From Ruania albidiflava DSM 18029 (lineage in GTDB: Bacteria > Actinomycetota > Actinomycetes > Actinomycetales > Beutenbergiaceae), in contig NZ_ATWL01000008.1 of NCBI RefSeq assembly GCF_000421225.1, forward strand, positions 1 to 64,000: a stretch of 64,000 bases of DNA, in the 5' to 3' direction. A program made the translations under genes and the position numbers. A model generated the notes under the pieces. It ran no database searches. It saw nothing but the letters and a program-made list of their open reading frames with translations, and was not told the origin of the DNA. Positions 5 to 7,643 of the stretch are shown in pieces; the stretch's first letter is position 1, and every line of letters begins with the position of its first letter.

Positions 5-2092
5 GTGTCTTCGCGTGTGGGGGGTGGGGGTTTTCGGCCTGATATTGAGGGGTTGCGGGCTGTTGCGATTGGGTTGGTGCTGGTCTACCACGCGGGTGTG
101 GTGGAGGTGTTCCCTGGTGGGTTTGTGGGGGTTGATGTTTTCTTTGTGATCTCGGGGTTCTTGATCACGGGGTTGTTGATCAGGGAGCTGGAGAAGCAGG
201 GGCGGGTGTCGTTGCCGCGGTTTTATGCGCGGCGGGCGAAGCGGTTGTTGCCGGCGGCGGGGTTGGTGCTGGTGGTGACTGCGGCCTTGACGTGGTGGTC
301 GGTGTCGGTGGTGCAGTGGCGCACTTTTGGTGGGGACATCGTGGGTGCGGCGTTGTATGTGGTGAATTGGGTGTTGGCGGCTCGGTCGGTGGACTATCTG
401 GCTGAGGGGGTGGGGGTTTCTCCGGTTCAGCATTTTTGGTCGTTGGCGGTGGAGGAGCAGTTCTACATCGTGTGGCCGTTGTTGCTGGTGCTGGTGGGCT
501 GGTGGGTGCGTCGGCGTGCCGGTGCGCGGTTGCGGCCGGTGATGGCGGTGGGGATCGGGTTGGTGATCGTGCCGTCGTTCATCTGGTCGGTGGTGATGAC
601 GGCGGGTAATCCGGAGGCGGCGTTCTTTGTGACTCCTACGCGGTTGTGGGAGCTGGGGGTGGGGGCGTTGGTGGCTATCGGTGCTCGGTGGTGGTCTGGG
701 TTGCCGCGTGTGGTGGGTGTGGTGCTGGGTTGGGTGGGCCTGGTGGCGGTGGTGGCTTCTGGGGTGCTGCTGAGTACTGAGGTGGCTTGGCCGGGGTATG
801 CGGCGGCGTGGCCGGTGTTGGGGTCGGCTGCGGTGATCGTGGCTGGGTTTAGCTCTGGTCGTGGGGGTGCGGCGGGGTTGTTGTCGTGGAAGCCGGCGGT
901 GTGGGTCGGTGGGTTGTCGTATTCGTTGTATCTGTGGCACTGGCCGTTGTTGGTGGCGGCGACGGGTTTGTGGGGGGAGCTGGGTGGCAAGAAGGGGTTG
1001 GTGGTTGCTGCGGTCAGCTTTGTCCCGGCGTGGGTGAGCTATAAGTTCGTGGAGAATCCGTTTCGGTTTGCTGCTCCGGTTGCGCGGTCGAATCGGTTGG
1101 CGTTGTCGTTGGGGGCGAACTTCTCCCTGGTGGGGGTTGCTGCGGGGTTGGTGTTGATGTTGGTGGTGCCGCAGGTGGGGGCCAATCCTGAGCAGGAGCA
1201 GCAGGCTCAGGGTGCGGCGGCGTTGCACCAGGGTGGGTCGGCCAGTGCGGAGGCCCCACCAGGATCGGTGGCCTCCCTGGCCTCGGTGGACTGGTTCACC
1301 CCACAAGCCACCCAAGCCACCAGCGACAACCCGGAGTCGTCCGAGGCCGGCTGCTCGCAGAACCAGACCGACCCGGAACCAATCGTGTGCGAGTGGGGGG
1401 ATCTGGAAGGAGATCTCACCGTTGCCATGATCGGCGACTCCAAGGTGATCCAGTGGCAGTCGGCGATCGAGCAGATCGCCAACGACGAAGGCTGGCACGT
1501 CTACTCCTACATCAAGTCCGCCTGCGCCTTCGGCACCGGCGTCCAGGTCGCCAAGGGCGACCCGTACACCAGCTGCCAGCAGTGGAACGAGCAGATGCTG
1601 CCGATCATCCTCGACCAGCAGCCCGATGTGGTCATCGTCTCCAACCGGGTCGCCACCGCGATGGCCAACCCGCCGGACACCGAGTCCCGTACCAGCCAGG
1701 CCATGGAAGATGCTCTGGCCGAACGCTGGACCCAGCTAGCCGACGCGGACATCCCGGTGGTGGTGATGCTGGACTCGGTCAGCCCCGGCGACATCTCCGT
1801 CTACGAGTGCGTGGCGGACAACCTGGACAACCTCCAGGCCTGCACCTTCGACCGCAACGAAGGCGTCCAACGGTCCGGAGCTCCTGTGCAGGAGGCCGCT
1901 GCCGAGCGGGTGCCCGGGGTGCAGACCATCGACATGACCGACCAGGTCTGTCCCGAGGAGACCTGCGTACCGGTCATCGGCAACGTCCTCGTCTACCGAC
2001 AGACCTCCCACCTGACCAGCACCTACGTCCGCACCCTCACGCCGTACCTGGCGGACAGGCTCGTCCCTGCGGTGAACGAGGCGGTGGGGTAG
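5..2092 (+). CDS. OafA/YrhL-type membrane acyltransferase with C-terminal SGNH domain
   Basis: Predicted to O-acylate a cell-surface polysaccharide, lipid or peptidoglycan. Residues 10-390 form an acyltransferase-3 membrane domain: FRPDIEGLRAVAI at the N-terminus, the conserved His of the LVYHAG motif near residue 29, and about ten hydrophobic segments. Residues 420-695 are an extracytoplasmic SGNH hydrolase-like domain with GDSK near 477-480 and SHLT near 668, the likely catalytic Ser and His. This fusion is a known architecture. GTG at 5 is the first start inside the window; the frame is open to the window edge, so an upstream start is possible. Bases 1 to about 1245 use G/T-ending codons (TTG, GTG, GGG, GGT) heavily, while the SGNH half uses the C-rich codons of the neighbours, suggesting separate origins. 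The next gene is a paralogue of the SGNH half. The acyl substrate is unknown. Confidence 0.88.
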   Translation: MSSRVGGGGFRPDIEGLRAVAIGLVLVYHAGVVEVFPGGFVGVDVFFVISGFLITGLLIRELEKQGRVSLPRFYARRAKRLLPAAGLVLVVTAALTWWSVSVVQWRTFGGDIVGAALYVVNWVLAARSVDYLAEGVGVSPVQHFWSLAVEEQFYIVWPLLLVLVGWWVRRRAGARLRPVMAVGIGLVIVPSFIWSVVMTAGNPEAAFFVTPTRLWELGVGALVAIGARWWSGLPRVVGVVLGWVGLVAVVASGVLLSTEVAWPGYAAAWPVLGSAAVIVAGFSSGRGGAAGLLSWKPAVWVGGLSYSLYLWHWPLLVAATGLWGELGGKKGLVVAAVSFVPAWVSYKFVENPFRFAAPVARSNRLALSLGANFSLVGVAAGLVLMLVVPQVGANPEQEQQAQGAAALHQGGSASAEAPPGSVASLASVDWFTPQATQATSDNPESSEAGCSQNQTDPEPIVCEWGDLEGDLTVAMIGDSKVIQWQSAIEQIANDEGWHVYSYIKSACAFGTGVQVAKGDPYTSCQQWNEQMLPIILDQQPDVVIVSNRVATAMANPPDTESRTSQAMEDALAERWTQLADADIPVVVMLDSVSPGDISVYECVADNLDNLQACTFDRNEGVQRSGAPVQEAAAERVPGVQTIDMTDQVCPEETCVPVIGNVLVYRQTSHLTSTYVRTLTPYLADRLVPAVNEAVG

Positions 2093-2102
2093 CCGCACAG
2101 CG

Positions 2103-3140
2103 ATGAAGCACGAGACCTCGGCGCCGGACCGCCCGCAGCACTCCACGACACGGTGGCTGGTCGGCGGGAACGCTGCACTGCTCACCGTGGCGGTCGTGCT
2201 GCTCGCCATGCTGCTCGCCCAGCCCCCGCCCGAGCGCGAGGCGGATACGGCGAACGCTCAGGGAGCACAGGTGCTGGACCAGGCCCAGGACGCCCCGGCA
2301 GACGCCGTGCCCGGCACGATGGCCTCGCTGCGGGACGTGACCTGGTTCATCCCGAGCACGGCTGATGCACGCTACGACATGCCCCGGGGCTACGACTACG
2401 GCTGCGAGCAGAACCAGCAGGACGCCGAGGCGGTCCGCTGCGACTTCGGCGATCCGGACGGGGACGTCACCGTGGCCATGGTCGGGGACTCGAAGGTGCT
2501 GCAGTGGCAGTCGGCCGTGGCGACCCTCGGGCACGAGAACGCCTGGCACGTGCTCTCCTACACCAAGTCCAACTGCGGACTGCACGCCGGTCTGCAGACC
2601 AACCACGGTCAGCCGTACCGCAGCTGCGAACAGTGGAACGACCGAGTGATGGCCGACCTGCTCGCCGACCCGCCCGACGTGGTGCTGGTGTCCAACTATG
2701 TGAACACCGCCCTGGACCCGCCTGCGGACCAGGAGGAGAGCCAGGCGGCGATGGTCGACGCGCTGGTGACCCAGTGGCGCACCCTGACCGAGGCGGGTAT
2801 CGCCGTCGTGGTGATCCTGGACAACCCCAGCCCAGACGGGGACTCGGTGTACGAGTGCGTGGCGACCCACCTGCGCGAGCTGGGCGCCTGCGCCTTCGAC
2901 CGGGAAACAGGCATCGCCCGCTCCGGTCAGCCGGTGCAGCTGGCGGCCGCAGCGCAGCTGCCGCAGGTGCACACTGTGGACCTCACCGACCACATCTGCC
3001 CGGAGGAGATGTGCGTACCGGTGATCGGCAACGTGCTCATCTACCGGCAGGGCTCGCACCTCACCGACGTGTACGTCCGCACGCTCACACCTGCGCTGGG
3101 ACGGCAGCTGGTGCCGGTCGTCGCGGACGTGACCGGGTAG
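2103..3140 (+). CDS. Membrane-anchored SGNH-domain protein, paralogue of the preceding C-terminal domain
   Basis: A 345-residue protein with one N-terminal membrane segment (about residues 19-40), a short linker and an SGNH-like domain. That domain is closely similar along its whole length to the C-terminal part of the upstream acyltransferase: both share MASL or VASL, GDSK followed by WQSA, VYECVA, CPEE and GSHLT or TSHLT. GDSK near 128-131 and the His of SHLT near 320 are the predicted catalytic elements. It has no acyltransferase membrane domain, so it may hydrolyse or transfer acyl groups outside the membrane, or act with the upstream enzyme. It starts 10 bp after the upstream stop, so the two genes are probably co-transcribed. 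It converges on the UDP-glucose dehydrogenase gene with no obvious terminator between them. Exact activity is inferred. Confidence 0.8.
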   Translation: MKHETSAPDRPQHSTTRWLVGGNAALLTVAVVLLAMLLAQPPPEREADTANAQGAQVLDQAQDAPADAVPGTMASLRDVTWFIPSTADARYDMPRGYDYGCEQNQQDAEAVRCDFGDPDGDVTVAMVGDSKVLQWQSAVATLGHENAWHVLSYTKSNCGLHAGLQTNHGQPYRSCEQWNDRVMADLLADPPDVVLVSNYVNTALDPPADQEESQAAMVDALVTQWRTLTEAGIAVVVILDNPSPDGDSVYECVATHLRELGACAFDRETGIARSGQPVQLAAAAQLPQVHTVDLTDHICPEEMCVPVIGNVLIYRQGSHLTDVYVRTLTPALGRQLVPVVADVTG

Positions 3141-3182
3141 GCCGAGCCAGGGTCGGACCGAGCGGAGAGGCGCGGGGTCGGG

Positions 3183-4349
3183 TCAGTCCCGCCGGTACAC
3201 GTCCCGGGTGTAGACCTTCTCGGCCACGTCCTCCAGGTCCGCATCGTGCCGGTTGCTGATGATCACGTCGGCGCGGTGCTTGAAGGCCGCCAGGTCGGTG
3301 ACCACCTCGGAGCCGAAGAACTCCGCCGTCTGCAGTGCCGGTTCGTACACGATCACCTCGACGTCCTCGCTGCGCAACCGGCGCATGATGCCCTGGATGG
3401 AGGAGTCACGGAAGTTGTCCGACCCGGACTTCATCACCAACCGGAACACGCCCACCGTGCGCGGCCTGCGGCGCAGCACGTCAGCGGCGATGAAGTCCTT
3501 CCGGGTCGCGTTCGCCTCCACCACCGCCCGGATGAGGTTCTGCGGCACCTGCTGGTAGTTGGCGAGCAGCTGCTTGGTGTCCTTGGGCAGGCAGTAGCCG
3601 CCGTACCCGAACGAGGGGTTGTTGTAGTGCGAGCCGATGCGCGGGTCCAGGCTCACCCCCTCGATGATCTGCGCGGAGTCCAGGCCGTGGGTCAGGGCGA
3701 AGGTGTCCAGCTCGTTGAAGTACGCCACCCGCAGCGCCAGGTAGGTGTTGGCGAACAGCTTGATCGCCTCCGCCTCGGTGGCGTCAGTCAGCAGCACCGG
3801 CACGTCGGCCTCTACCGCGCCCTCGACCAGCAGGTCCGCGAACCGCTTCCCAGCCTCGCCACGGTCTCCGACCACGATCCGGGAAGGGTGCAGGTTGTCC
3901 CAGAGTGCCTTGCCCTCGCGGAGGAACTCCGGGGAGAACAGCACCTGCAGGTCCGGGTGCTTAGCACGCATGCTGGCGGTGAACCCGACCGGCACCGTGG
4001 ACTTGATCACCACCACCGCCTCCGGTGCCACCGTCTGCACCTGCTCGAGCACCGAACGCACCGAGGAGGTGTCGAAGTAGTTGCTGCCCGGGTCGTAGTC
4101 GGTCGGCGTGGCGATCACCACGAAGGCAGCCCCGGCCAGTGCCTCGGTGGCCGAGGTGGTGGCATGCAGCTGCAGCCGCCCCGAATCCAGGTACTCAGCC
4201 AGCTCCGGGTCGGCGATGGGGGAGCGGCCGGCGTTCACCGCTGCCACCTTCTCCTCATCGACGTCCAGGGCCACCACCTCCTGGTGCTGGGCCAGCAGCG
4301 TGGCGATGGACAGCCCGACGTAGCCACATCCGGCGACGGCGATCTTCAC
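3183..4349 (-). CDS. ugd: UDP-glucose 6-dehydrogenase (nucleotide-sugar dehydrogenase)
   Basis: NAD-dependent oxidation of UDP-glucose to UDP-glucuronate, a precursor for acidic surface polysaccharides. The N-terminus [14 protein letters not shown] holds the GxGxxG Rossmann motif (residues 7-12). FSPEFLREG and [11 protein letters not shown] are present, the latter carrying the catalytic Cys near residue 253. I chose the GTG at 4349, with GGGAG 8 nt upstream, over a longer frame opening at 4388. This gives 388 residues, the length of the short Ugd class (388 in E. coli). The adjacent acyltransferase/SGNH genes suggest a shared role in surface-glycan synthesis. A different nucleotide-sugar substrate cannot be excluded. 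Confidence 0.9.
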
Positions 4350-4452: not shown

Positions 4453-4486
4453 CAGGGCCCTGCCCGCTGCTGCGGACAGGGCCCTG
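4453..4486 (-). terminator. Hairpin terminator after the osmoprotectant operon
   Basis: Two copies of the 10-mer CAGGGCCCTG (4453-4462 and 4477-4486) can pair as a 10-bp GC-rich stem with a 14-nt loop. It lies 18 bp beyond the stop codon of the substrate-binding protein gene and before the next minus-strand gene. No clear T-tract follows, as is common in high-GC actinobacteria. Confidence 0.6.
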
Positions 4487-4504: not shown

Positions 4505-5437
4505 TCAGGAGGTCGCTGAGGTGAGCTCGGCGAGCATCGCAGAGGTGGAGGAGGTGACGAACTCCATGTCCTCCAGGCCGTAGGTCGGGATGACCTCGTC
4601 CTCGGTGATGCGGGTCAGGCCAGCACCCGGGTCGATGCCGACGATCCGGTTACCGAAGGCGTCGGCATTGTCTGCCAGCTCGTCCAGCGAGTCGATCGGC
4701 GCATCCTCGTTCACGGCGATGTTCAAGGTCGCCTCGTCGTACCAGATGCCCAGATCCTCGATCTGGTCGCCGTACTGCTCGTAGTAGTCGGCGTGCGTGG
4801 TCGGCAGCCAGCCGTCGAACAGCAGCTCGTACCCGCCGTCACCAGCCAGGGAGGTGAAGATGACGCCGATGTCGGCGTCCTCGGCGTTGACCGTGTAGCC
4901 GAAGTCCTCCAGCATGGCCTTCCAGAGGTGGCTGACCGCCACACCCTCGTCCCAGCCGGCGGGCATACCGATGCTCAGCTCGGTCATGTCATCTGCCGTG
5001 TCCTGCGGCTCACTGGAACCGACTGTGGCTTCCACCCAGTCAGGATTCTCCTCGAGCCACTGTGCTGCGGACTCCTCGTTCTGCTCACCGTCGTTCTCGT
5101 TGAGCATCAGGTTCTCAAGAGAGGCGAGCTGCTCGTCGGAGAGGGTGAAGTTGCCGATCCACTCGGCGAGCTGCGGGTAGTCCTCGGCGAAACCGGTCCG
5201 GCCGAAGGTGTGGATCTCCTCTGCCTCGCCCAGGGCGCCCTCGGGGTCCTCCAGGTCGCGGATCGGGAACTCGTCGTAGGCCCAGTGTGGGTGCCACAGC
5301 GTGACGACGATGTTGTCGCCCTCGGCGGCATTATCGTCACCGCCGCCATCGCCCTCGTCCGAGCCGCAGGCGGCGAGGCCGAGAGCGAACGCCGCAGTTA
5401 CGGCAACGCCGATCATGTTGCGCGTTGTGCTTCGCAT
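4505..5437 (-). CDS. Glycine betaine/proline-betaine-type ABC substrate-binding lipoprotein, circularly permuted
   Basis: Extracytoplasmic binding protein of the OpuAC/ProX-type osmoprotectant importer. It has a lipoprotein signal peptide with lipobox LAAC (Cys24) and an acidic linker. AAAGGAA precedes the ATG. The family blocks are all present but in rotated order: the block with WHPHW, EAEEIHT and WLEENPDW, usually late in the protein, occupies residues 42-140. The block starting TELSIG with [12 protein letters not shown] and LPTTHADYY occupies 152-262, then GIDPGAG (267-273), and the protein ends with [10 protein letters not shown]. In the common arrangement MLAxL runs directly into VVTxWxPHW, so the old join is now the two ends and a linker (141-150) closes the circle. 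Permuted members are known; this break position looks different from the Bacillus one as I recall it. Third gene of the operon, 62 bp after the permease. Confidence 0.85.
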
Positions 5438-5499
5438 GTATTCCTTTCTGGGGGCGTCGCCCCCGGGATCGAATTCGTGGGGTCCGGTCCGCTTCCCGA

Positions 5500-6366
5500 T
5501 CAGGCGGCGCGTGTCTTCAGCGCCTTCGCGACCGGGGAACGGTCGGACAGGGCGGCGGTGATCCGGTCGAGGAACATCGCCAGGATCACCACCGAGAACC
5601 CGGCCTCGAAACCGAGGCCGACGTTCACTCGGGTGAGCGAGCTGTAGACGTCAGCGCCGAGGCCGCCAGCGCCGACCATTCCGGCGATGACGACCATCGA
5701 CAGGGCAAGCATGATCACCTGGTTCACTCCGCCCATGATCGTCGGTAGCGCGAGCGGGATCTGGATCTGGCGCAGGATGCGCCCGGGGGAGGAGCCGAAT
5801 GCATGCCCTGCCTCGACGACCTCCTTGTCCACCTGCCGGATACCGAGCTCGGTGAACCGGATACCCGGGGCGATGGCGAAGATGATGGTGGCGATCATTC
5901 CTGGAACAGCACCGGTGAGGAAGATGACGACGGTCGGGATCAGGTACACGAACGCTGGCATCGTCTGCAGGAAGTCCAGGATCGGTCGTACGACCAGGGA
6001 GACCGTGTCGTTGCGGGCCGCCCAGACTCCCACCGGGATACCGATGAGCAGGGCTATCAAGCTGGCCAGGAGCACCAGGGCGAGGCTGTCCATCGCGTTC
6101 GACCACTGGCCCACGGACTGGATCACGAGCATCCCGACGAGCGTGCCGACCGCGAGCTTCCAGCCCTTGGCGAAGAACGCCAGCAGTGCCAGGACGACGG
6201 CGATCAGCAGCGGTGGCGGTCCACCCAGGACGAGGTCCAACGCGTCGTAGAGACCCTCCAGGACCGTCTTGATGAAGGTGAAGATGACCGCGAACGTGTC
6301 GGTCAGCCAGTCGACGAAGGTCTCGACCCAGCTGCCGAGCGGCAGCGTGAAGAGTGGTTCGTTCAT
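5500..6366 (-). CDS. proW: Glycine betaine ABC transporter permease (ProW/OpuAB family)
   Basis: Inner-membrane channel subunit for osmoprotectant uptake; 288 residues with about seven hydrophobic segments. The cytoplasmic loop EAGHAFGSSPGRILRQIQIPLALP carries the EAA-type motif (EAGxAFGxxxxxxLxxIxxPLA) that contacts the ATPase. MPAFVYLIP and the GLGADVYSSL tail are typical of ProW/OpuAB. Its ATG (6364-6366) overlaps the ATPase stop codon in an ATGA junction, so the two are translationally coupled. The name proW follows family usage; which compatible solute is carried (glycine betaine, proline betaine, choline) is not shown by the sequence. Confidence 0.9.
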   Translation of the reverse strand: MNEPLFTLPLGSWVETFVDWLTDTFAVIFTFIKTVLEGLYDALDLVLGGPPPLLIAVVLALLAFFAKGWKLAVGTLVGMLVIQSVGQWSNAMDSLALVLLASLIALLIGIPVGVWAARNDTVSLVVRPILDFLQTMPAFVYLIPTVVIFLTGAVPGMIATIIFAIAPGIRFTELGIRQVDKEVVEAGHAFGSSPGRILRQIQIPLALPTIMGGVNQVIMLALSMVVIAGMVGAGGLGADVYSSLTRVNVGLGFEAGFSVVILAMFLDRITAALSDRSPVAKALKTRAA

Positions 6367-7643
6367 CGGGTGCCTCCGGCGCTGGTTGTGGTCTGTGCTC
6401 CCTCAGGTTCGGCTGCAGTGATCTCTGTATCACCGTTCGCCGGCGAAGGGGCGGACGACGGTGAGTCCTCAGGGGCCATCGCCTCCAGCAGGCTCACTCG
6501 CGGTATCACTCCGGAGAGCCGGCCCTGGTCGTCGACGACGGCCAGGGGCACCGGCGACTCCGACGACGGGGCGAACAGGTCCACCAGCGGGGTGTCCTCG
6601 TTAACCGGGGTGATCAGAGTACGCACCACGCCTTCGATCGTGTCAGCGCCCTCGCGCTGGGCCTGGAGCAGGTCCTCGTCCACGACCGTGCCGAGCAGCT
6701 TTCGGTCACGGTCCACCACGACCGCGCCGGCGAGCTGTACCTCTTCGAGCTCACGCAGCGCTCGTCGTGGACCGGTGGTGGACCGCAGCGTGAGAGTGGG
6801 CTTACGCATCAGCGATGAGGCCTGCAGGACGCGGGTGCGGTCGACATCGGCGATGAACCGGGCCACGTAGTCGTCTGCCGGCTCGGAGAGGATCTGCTCG
6901 GCGGTGCCAATCTGGACGATCCGCCCGTCTCGCATCACTGCGATCCGGTCGCCCAGGCGCATCGCCTCGTTGAGGTCGTGGGTGATGAAGACGATGGTCT
7001 TTCCCAGTCGCTGCTGCAGGTCGATCAGCTGCTCCTGCATGTCGCGGCGGATCAGCGGGTCGAGAGCGGAGAAGGCCTCATCCATCAGCAGTACATCGGT
7101 ATCTGCCGTCAACGCCCGGGCCAGCCCCACGCGCTGACGCATGCCACCGGAGAGCTGGGAGGGCAGCTTGTCGCCCCAGCCGTCCAAGCCCACCATCTCC
7201 AGCGAACGGTTGGCACGCTCCATCCGCTCACCCTTGGGAACCCGCTGGATCTCCAGAGGGTAGGCGGCGTTGTCCAGCACTGTGCGGTGCGGCAACAGTG
7301 CGAAGTGCTGGAACACCATGGAGACCCGAGTGCGGCGGATCTCCCGCATCCGTGCCGCCGAAACCTCGCTCAGGTCATCCTCACCGAGGTGGATGTGCCC
7401 GCCGTTGGGCCGCCAGATACCGTTGAGCATACGGATGAGCGTGGACTTGCCGGACCCGGAGAGGCCCATGACCACGAAGATCTCACCCTCTTGCACCTCG
7501 AAGGAGGCGTCGATGACCGCCGCAGTACCCAGGTCGGCGACATCGCTGCGGCTGGCCCCCTCGCGCAGCTTCGACACAGCTTCGGCCGGGCGACGTCCGA
7601 AAACCTTGTATACGTTCTGAACACGTAGTGCGTTCACGCTCAC
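6363..7643 (-). CDS. proV: Glycine betaine ABC transporter ATP-binding protein with C-terminal CBS domains
   Basis: Energises osmoprotectant import. The 426-residue chain has Walker A GLSGSGKST, Q-loop MVFQHFALLPH, ABC signature LSGGMRQRVGLARAL and Walker B VLLMDEAFSALDP. After residue about 280 come two CBS-like units (for example VVDRDRKLLGTVVDEDL and VVDDQGRLSGVIPRVSLL), which in OpuA-type importers sense ionic strength. The C-terminus is a low-complexity Ser/Pro/Ala tail. First gene of the operon; the permease follows with a 4-bp overlap. The promoter should lie in the long upstream gap, where a TATCAT box is readable on the minus strand (7892-7897). Confidence 0.92.
   Translation of the reverse strand: MSVNALRVQNVYKVFGRRPAEAVSKLREGASRSDVADLGTAAVIDASFEVQEGEIFVVMGLSGSGKSTLIRMLNGIWRPNGGHIHLGEDDLSEVSAARMREIRRTRVSMVFQHFALLPHRTVLDNAAYPLEIQRVPKGERMERANRSLEMVGLDGWGDKLPSQLSGGMRQRVGLARALTADTDVLLMDEAFSALDPLIRRDMQEQLIDLQQRLGKTIVFITHDLNEAMRLGDRIAVMRDGRIVQIGTAEQILSEPADDYVARFIADVDRTRVLQASSLMRKPTLTLRSTTGPRRALRELEEVQLAGAVVVDRDRKLLGTVVDEDLLQAQREGADTIEGVVRTLITPVNEDTPLVDLFAPSSESPVPLAVVDDQGRLSGVIPRVSLLEAMAPEDSPSSAPSPANGDTEITAAEPEGAQTTTSAGGTR

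Follow-up and report, generated by a model that had tools for sequence, protein, structure and literature searches.

Glycine-betaine binding proteins of the OpuAC/ProX family (PF04069) share three sequence blocks, referred to here as block 1 (WHPHW...EEIHT...NPDW), block 2 (GWDEG...LNIAV) and block 3 (GIDPGAG...MLAEL), and the closest described proteins carry them in two different rotations. The OpuAC domain of Lactococcus lactis (3l6g, 3l6h), which is fused to its permease, and Escherichia coli ProX (1r9l) have the order 2-3-1, and Bacillus subtilis OpuAC (2b4l, 2b4m) has the order 3-1-2. Permutation relations among 2b4l, 1r9l and 1sw1 were reported in 2008, in the passages of PMC2395249 that deal with these proteins. 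For L. lactis OpuAC, the hinge passages of PMC2861598 place the hinge centres at Lys404 and Ser508. Outside the family, the parts of PMC4990184 concerning TpMglB-2 (Tp0684) describe a circularly permuted glucose-binding lipoprotein that still binds its ligand; as in the protein described below, a tethered binding protein has been permuted in nature, but TpMglB-2 has a Type I fold, belongs to another family, and gains a fourth hinge crossing through its permutation.

The window, the whole stretch of 64,000 nucleotides of Ruania albidiflava DSM 18029 that was analysed, contains a member of this family that fits neither the 2-3-1 (ProX/L. lactis) layout nor the 3-1-2 (B. subtilis OpuAC) layout. 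The open reading frame list places the gene at 5437-4505 on the minus strand, with an ATG start and a product of 310 aa that is a lipoprotein by its sequence (LGLAAC), and an RBS-like AGAAAGGA lies ahead of the ATG (5442..5449, minus strand). The protein has the block order 1-2-3. From its N-terminus, with all coordinates on the minus strand, it comprises a signal peptide with the lipobox LAAC (residues 1-24, 5366..5437), in which C24 would be lipidated; an acidic spacer (residues 25-42, 5312..5365), which comparison with the loop of relatives places at the opened loop (AAEGDN), to which it is joined; block 1 (VVTLWHPHW...EEIHT..., residues 43-140, 5018..5311), which is C-terminal in ordinary relatives; a fusion linker (residues 141-152, 4982..5017), which by comparison with the ordinary-order relative L012 leads from the old C-terminus to the old N-terminal spacer; block 2 (GWDEG...DGWLPTTH...LNIAV, residues 153-262, 4652..4981), delimited by motifs and block alignment; and block 3 (GIDPGAG..., residues 263-310, 4508..4651), with the stop codon at 4505-4507. 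The motifs VVTLWHPHW and AEEIHT of block 1 lie at residues 44-52 and 72-77, GWDEG and DGWLPTTH of block 2 at 161-165 and 208-215, and GIDPGAG and the end motif containing MLAEL of block 3 at 267-273 and 296-305.

The Pfam OpuAC profile, for which the cut-off is 21.2 bits, matches the protein with 178.6 bits, split over two stretches, and the genome Pfam search finds these in swapped order on the minus strand, with profile positions 166-257 (bases 5329-5048) ahead of positions 4-167 (bases 4975-4508). With phmmer, residues 43-242 and 252-306 align with positions 63-253 and 1-54 of the B. subtilis chain 2b4l, and residues 161-307 and 41-133 align with positions 10-152 and 158-247 of the L. lactis chain 3l6g. 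Separate alignment of both parts to OpuAC structures, proposed in an earlier note on this DNA, therefore shows the segments exchanged, and exchanged differently for the two proteins. The claim of that note that all family blocks are present but rotated is borne out by Pfam, phmmer and the motif positions, and it was also right, by phmmer against the PDB sequences, in starting the Bacillus order at GIDPGSG and the Lactococcus order at the GWDEG block. Its statement that the chain stops right after MLAEL holds in so far as MLAEL lies near the end, but the stop comes five residues later. The block matches are not due to chance, because the identities to two loci of the same family are 61-80%, amounting for blocks 2, 3 and 1 to 68%, 80% and 61% with L009 and to 63%, 78% and 73% with L012. 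The protein passes no NCBIfam cut-off, reaching at best 84.6 of 379.05 bits with the choline-binding model TIGR03414 and 26.6 of 215 bits with the ProX model NF008334. Family features found for OpuAC/ProX (PF04069) are the profile, a predicted class II two-lobed fold, the ligand site and the operon. The Ruania protein is thus confirmed as a circularly permuted OpuAC/ProX-family protein in a third arrangement.

Many natural circular permutations are of such age that the route to them is difficult to trace. Here, both junctions are readable residue by residue because an ordinary relative of about 70% identity shares the operon, signal peptide and spacer. This relative, L012 (genome G023, the ordinary actinobacterial type), is 70% identical to the Ruania protein over 262 columns once re-ordered. 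It resembles the rotated gene in having ATPase and permease matches ahead of it and a similar signal peptide and spacer, and it differs in its order 2-3-1 and, by homology, in the placement of its termini and of the lipid anchor, which are on lobe I. The corresponding loop in 2-3-1 relatives mostly reads MLAEL-xxAT-(D/E)(A/S)G(E/D)N-(I/V)xVTLW; the rotated protein opens the loop equivalent to a relative's MLAELQGAT/DSGDNIAVTLW, and its old C-terminus (VESVTG) is fused to the old N-terminal spacer (DDLDTVTIGIPAGWDEG). In L012 the loop is MLAELQGATDSGDNIAVTLW, the chain ends NPDFVESVTGA followed by the stop, and the mature domain starts DDLDTVTIGIPAGWDEG. An extra linker of about seven residues, SSEPQDT, lies between the old ends and is absent from the seven family members compared, and a signal peptide resembling that of L012 (MRST...LGLAACG) is retained. 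The domain is complete, with junction residues agreeing on both sides and no part missing, and both new junctions are in frame and within loops. Third-codon-position GC is 0.88, 0.92 and 0.92 for blocks 1, 2 and 3, 0.81-0.92 for the neighbouring genes, 0.76 for the signal peptide plus spacer and 0.69 for the linker. The longest direct repeat inside the gene, 75% over 32 nt, is weak and was not taken as a trace of duplication, and no second copy of any block better than E 0.19 was found in the 64-kb window.

For structure prediction, an initial alignment (A1) was discarded because block 1 fragments of relatives were put on block 2. The alignment used with AlphaFold2 (A2) consisted of unpaired fragments of relatives chosen so that MAFFT placed them correctly, namely 55 of 86 fragments (the best random draw, all in place), together with two Halalkalibacter fragments covering blocks 1-2 as a bridge. 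The fold prediction, suggested in the earlier note as a check, gave a confident two-lobed model with a mean pLDDT of 86.0 and a pTM of 0.81. From residue 41 onward, 21 of 27 ten-residue blocks have a pLDDT of at least 90; segments below 50 occur only within residues 1-28 and 30-38, and the mean at residues 141-150 is 73. In the model, the first strand of the domain spans residues 44-49 and the last helix residues 298-309. The Foldseek ranking was headed by a wide margin by B. subtilis OpuAC chains, with E values of 1e-16 or better and a query TM-score of about 0.6. Neither L. lactis OpuAC nor ProX is among the best 50 Foldseek matches listed, and both were found only by VIA. VIA aligned model residues 38..256 with residues 62..272 of 2b4m (Z 24.4, rmsd 1.9 over 210 residues) and model residues 151..310 with residues 320..474 of 3l6h (Z 11.3, rmsd 1.8 over 154 residues), and model residues 145-310 are collinear with 1r9l, whose alignment to blocks 2-3 starts at its residue 1. 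None of the glycine-betaine proteins listed by VIA spans the whole model. The VIA matches to the predicted structure cover the 1-2 and 2-3 parts, as would be expected of a third rotation.

Counting residues by hand on the phmmer alignment, the hinge centres given in those passages for L. lactis correspond to T237 (Lys404) and A72 (Ser508), with a numbering offset of 319 that also fits L. lactis G437, V438 and W484. T237 lies within the model strand 226-243, the first inter-lobe crossing (4709..4762, minus strand), and A72 adjoins the model strand 73-80, the second (5198..5221, minus strand). An opened or single-stranded hinge was ruled out, as the published centres map into or beside these retained crossing strands, and the moved hinge proposed in the earlier note is not borne out, both crossings being still present. 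By this mapping, lobe I consists of residues about 73-236, unbroken, and lobe II of two parts, residues 43-72 and 238-310; the continuity of the lobes is reversed in the 2-3-1 layout. The termini and lipid anchor would accordingly have shifted from lobe I to lobe II, with the new termini predicted to fall in a loop between a lobe-II helix and strand, and Venus-flytrap closing would be expected since the chain still crosses twice between the lobes. B. subtilis OpuAC shares the fold, is collinear over model residues 38-256 and probably also has its termini in lobe II, but its order is 3-1-2 and its chain is cut ahead of the GIDPGSG strand, which puts the cut about 45 residues, or one strand-helix unit, before that of the Ruania protein. 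The L. lactis domain and ProX have the same fold as the rotated protein with the order 2-3-1.

Ligand-site residues were also assigned by hand counting, and W48, W162, W210, H215 and G273-L274 align with the ligand site of L. lactis OpuAC as given in the relevant parts of PMC2861598, where the ligand histidine is printed as H392; the offset fitting G437, V438, K404, S508 and W484 gives 382. The alignment thereby recovers a Trp-prism, common to L. lactis OpuAC and the rotated protein, a carboxylate-binding His and the PGAG/PGSG backbone site.

Among the related loci taken from genome contigs, 53 of 55 have the order 2-3-1, two have 3-1-2 and none has 1-2-3. The 53 comprise 52 actinobacterial loci and one from Gracilimonas (L092), and include the broken-frame locus L087; both 3-1-2 loci (L088, L090) are from Halalkalibacter. 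In L087 (Paraoerskovia sediminicola, about 3106-3900) the gene, of ordinary order, does not run in a single frame, reflecting a frameshift or a sequencing error. In the wider samples, layouts were read mostly from match ranges at E limits of 1e-20 to 1e-40, at which distant 1-2-3 forms may be missed; the figures for the nearest relatives up to the phylum count the Ruania genome itself. A match contiguous over all blocks was counted only in Ruania among the nearest relatives (25 of 39 genomes with a match at 1e-20), in the genus (8 of 8 at 1e-25) and in the family (19 of 24 at 1e-30), and in the order (174 of 396 at 1e-30) it was again confined to Ruania among the matches listed, to E about 1e-38. 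Some order-level matches start at residues 114-140, near the end of block 1; of these, L016, L017 and L109 proved to be 2-3-1 on checking. At class level 63 of 394 genomes match at 1e-40, and contiguous matches besides Ruania occur in 16, all of group f37/g126; at phylum level 19 of 396 match at 1e-40, with contiguous matches in six besides Ruania, all among the same 16.

The samples around the Halalkalibacter locus L088 gave matches in 46 of 299 genomes of its phylum at 1e-24 and in 105 of 240 genomes of its class at 1e-30. Among the matches listed for the class, those of 12 genomes are full-length, with frame lengths of 862-1138 aa, and G1177, one of the 12, has such a match at phylum level too. 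Most matches listed for this class and phylum have ranges fitting 2-3-1 or 3-1-2, and two Bacilli matches starting mid-block (G1714:C10 and G1796:C3) were read as 2-3-1. The phylum of Gracilimonas yielded matches in 4 of 178 genomes at 1e-20, none contiguous. Across the three-phylum samples, contiguous 1-2-3 besides Ruania was present in 28 genomes among the matches listed, always in long frames, and the 10 that were read, seven from the 16 and three from the 12, are all tandem units. The single-unit 1-2-3 form was seen in one genome, Ruania, among those surveyed. The third arrangement anticipated in the earlier note is accordingly seen in no other surveyed member of the clade nor in the thinner samples of two further phyla, and the survey of related actinobacteria that it set as a check indicates that this break point is not the clade's standard form.

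All seven f37/g126 loci read encode a permease fused to two 2-3-1 units, in frames that measure 872-960 aa over the 16 genomes, and their contiguous 1-2-3 spans the junction between the units. In Bacillota, all three loci read (L145, L146, L147) encode a permease with two (G1177 and G1652, 868 and 863 aa) or three (G1783, 1138 aa) 3-1-2 units. These fusions share an internal 1-2-3 with the rotated protein but consist of several whole units, none trimmed to stand alone. Seven of the 55 loci (L042, L063, L065, L073, L074, L078 and L081) carry two whole binding-protein units next to each other. In L063, two tandem frames in the same frame are separated by one stop, and L050 has a partial second binding-protein match. 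A 2-3-1 ancestor may have been duplicated head to tail and fused to 2-3-1-2-3-1, after which the leading 2-3 and trailing 1 would have been lost, leaving signal peptide-spacer-1-linker-2-3; no such fused intermediate was seen in the Ruania lineage. The occurrence of tandem genes in 7 of 55 loci and of fused units in two phyla makes this the simplest route. With the junctions, the tandem fusions make duplication or fusion plus trimming, as the earlier note had implied, the best explanation.

The rotated gene follows an ATPase gene (6363..7643, minus strand) and a permease gene (5500..6366, minus strand) in the same operon. The ATPase scores 405.1 bits with TIGR01186 proV, above the curated cut-off of 326.6. 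The permease is 77% identical to the one adjoining L012; its best NCBIfam matches are two choline/betaine permeases, both below cut-off, and it matches choline and ProW models under their equivalog cut-offs. The order ATPase-permease-binding protein is found in 52 of the 55 related loci, the exceptions (L077, L082 and L083) having neither gene within 3 kb. Beyond the stop codon, a GC-rich hairpin with 15-nt arms and a 4-nt gap (4453..4486, unstranded) may be a terminator with no T run, and it holds two copies of the self-complementary CAGGGCCCTG; searches for T-run terminators and sigma-70 promoters found none. Elsewhere in the window, an ORF at 5-2092 (plus strand), labelled acyltransferase-like from the look of its sequence, is followed by a shorter ORF at 2103-3140 (plus strand), which is similar to the C-terminal portion of the first (..VAMIGDSKVxQWQSA.. 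/ ..VAMVGDSKVLQWQSA..) but lacks the membrane part. The Ruania genome gave seven OpuAC-family matches, of which two are the rotated gene and five lie on contigs C19, C17, C2, C6 and C32; the C17 copy has the ordinary order.

Taken together, the gene very probably encodes the lipid-anchored binding protein of an OpuA/ProU-type ABC importer for glycine-betaine (or a similar quaternary amine), permuted at a new place through duplication, fusion and trimming. Mis-assembly or sequencing error turning an ordinary gene into a rotated one is very unlikely, even for a draft genome of 60 contigs in a single assembly, given two new junctions that are in frame and in loops, block 1 preceded by a signal peptide, lipobox and spacer of native appearance, block 3 followed by a stop and hairpin, a linker found in none of the seven relatives compared, and no second block copy within the window. 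There is practically no prospect that the arrangement is a standard layout of the clade already on record. The literature does describe permutation among glycine-betaine binding proteins in general, but those in the relevant passages of PMC2395249 are 2b4l (3-1-2), 1r9l (blocks 2-3 from its first residue) and 1sw1; the locus, family, order, class and phylum surveys all contradict a standard layout, and no paper on this break point was found in the open-access literature searched.

A real but decaying by-product, folding or working poorly with another importer active in its place, is improbable. Its status as a singleton and the five further family matches in the genome would fit such a gene, but the frame is open, the ligand residues are present, the predicted fold is confident, and in a tree of re-ordered blocks its end branch of 0.17, above the median of 0.095, is half of the 0.34 of L012. 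Equally small is the probability of a chimera, in which half-genes of two paralogues or species were fused rather than one gene rotated. The closest rows do differ between the halves (L012 at 73% for block 1, L042 at 72% and L009 at 71% for blocks 2-3), and the separate half-gene trees, poorly resolved, disagree weakly, block 1 being nearest L012 and blocks 2-3 nearest L038 (Oerskovia), with neither placement within a starred set. Against this, L012 is first for block 1 and still ninth of 116 for blocks 2-3 (68%), the two halves show correlated identities (r = 0.80) to the 116 units of relatives, and the rotated protein pairs with L012 of the same family in the tree of re-ordered blocks (61 rows, being 60 of these units and the Ruania protein), with support of 91/81, not starred.

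Under the preferred reading, permutation of one gene by duplication, fusion and trimming, the third permutation is probably functional with its fold kept, as the model suggests. That its lobe-II anchor is convergent with Bacillus OpuAC and alters permease docking or ionic regulation of the importer is a tentative extension, and a rather unlikely one. The rotated gene, together with the two- and three-unit tandem fusions, makes the route of duplication, fusion and trimming testable, and it suggests that the binding-protein fold accepts a third pair of termini. The rotated gene is a probable natural experiment in how gene copying can move both ends of a protein and leave its fold intact. If the tentative extension to a convergent lobe-II anchor is true, this gene and the ordinary one related to it would be a naturally matched pair for testing how the position of the termini affects a flytrap protein.
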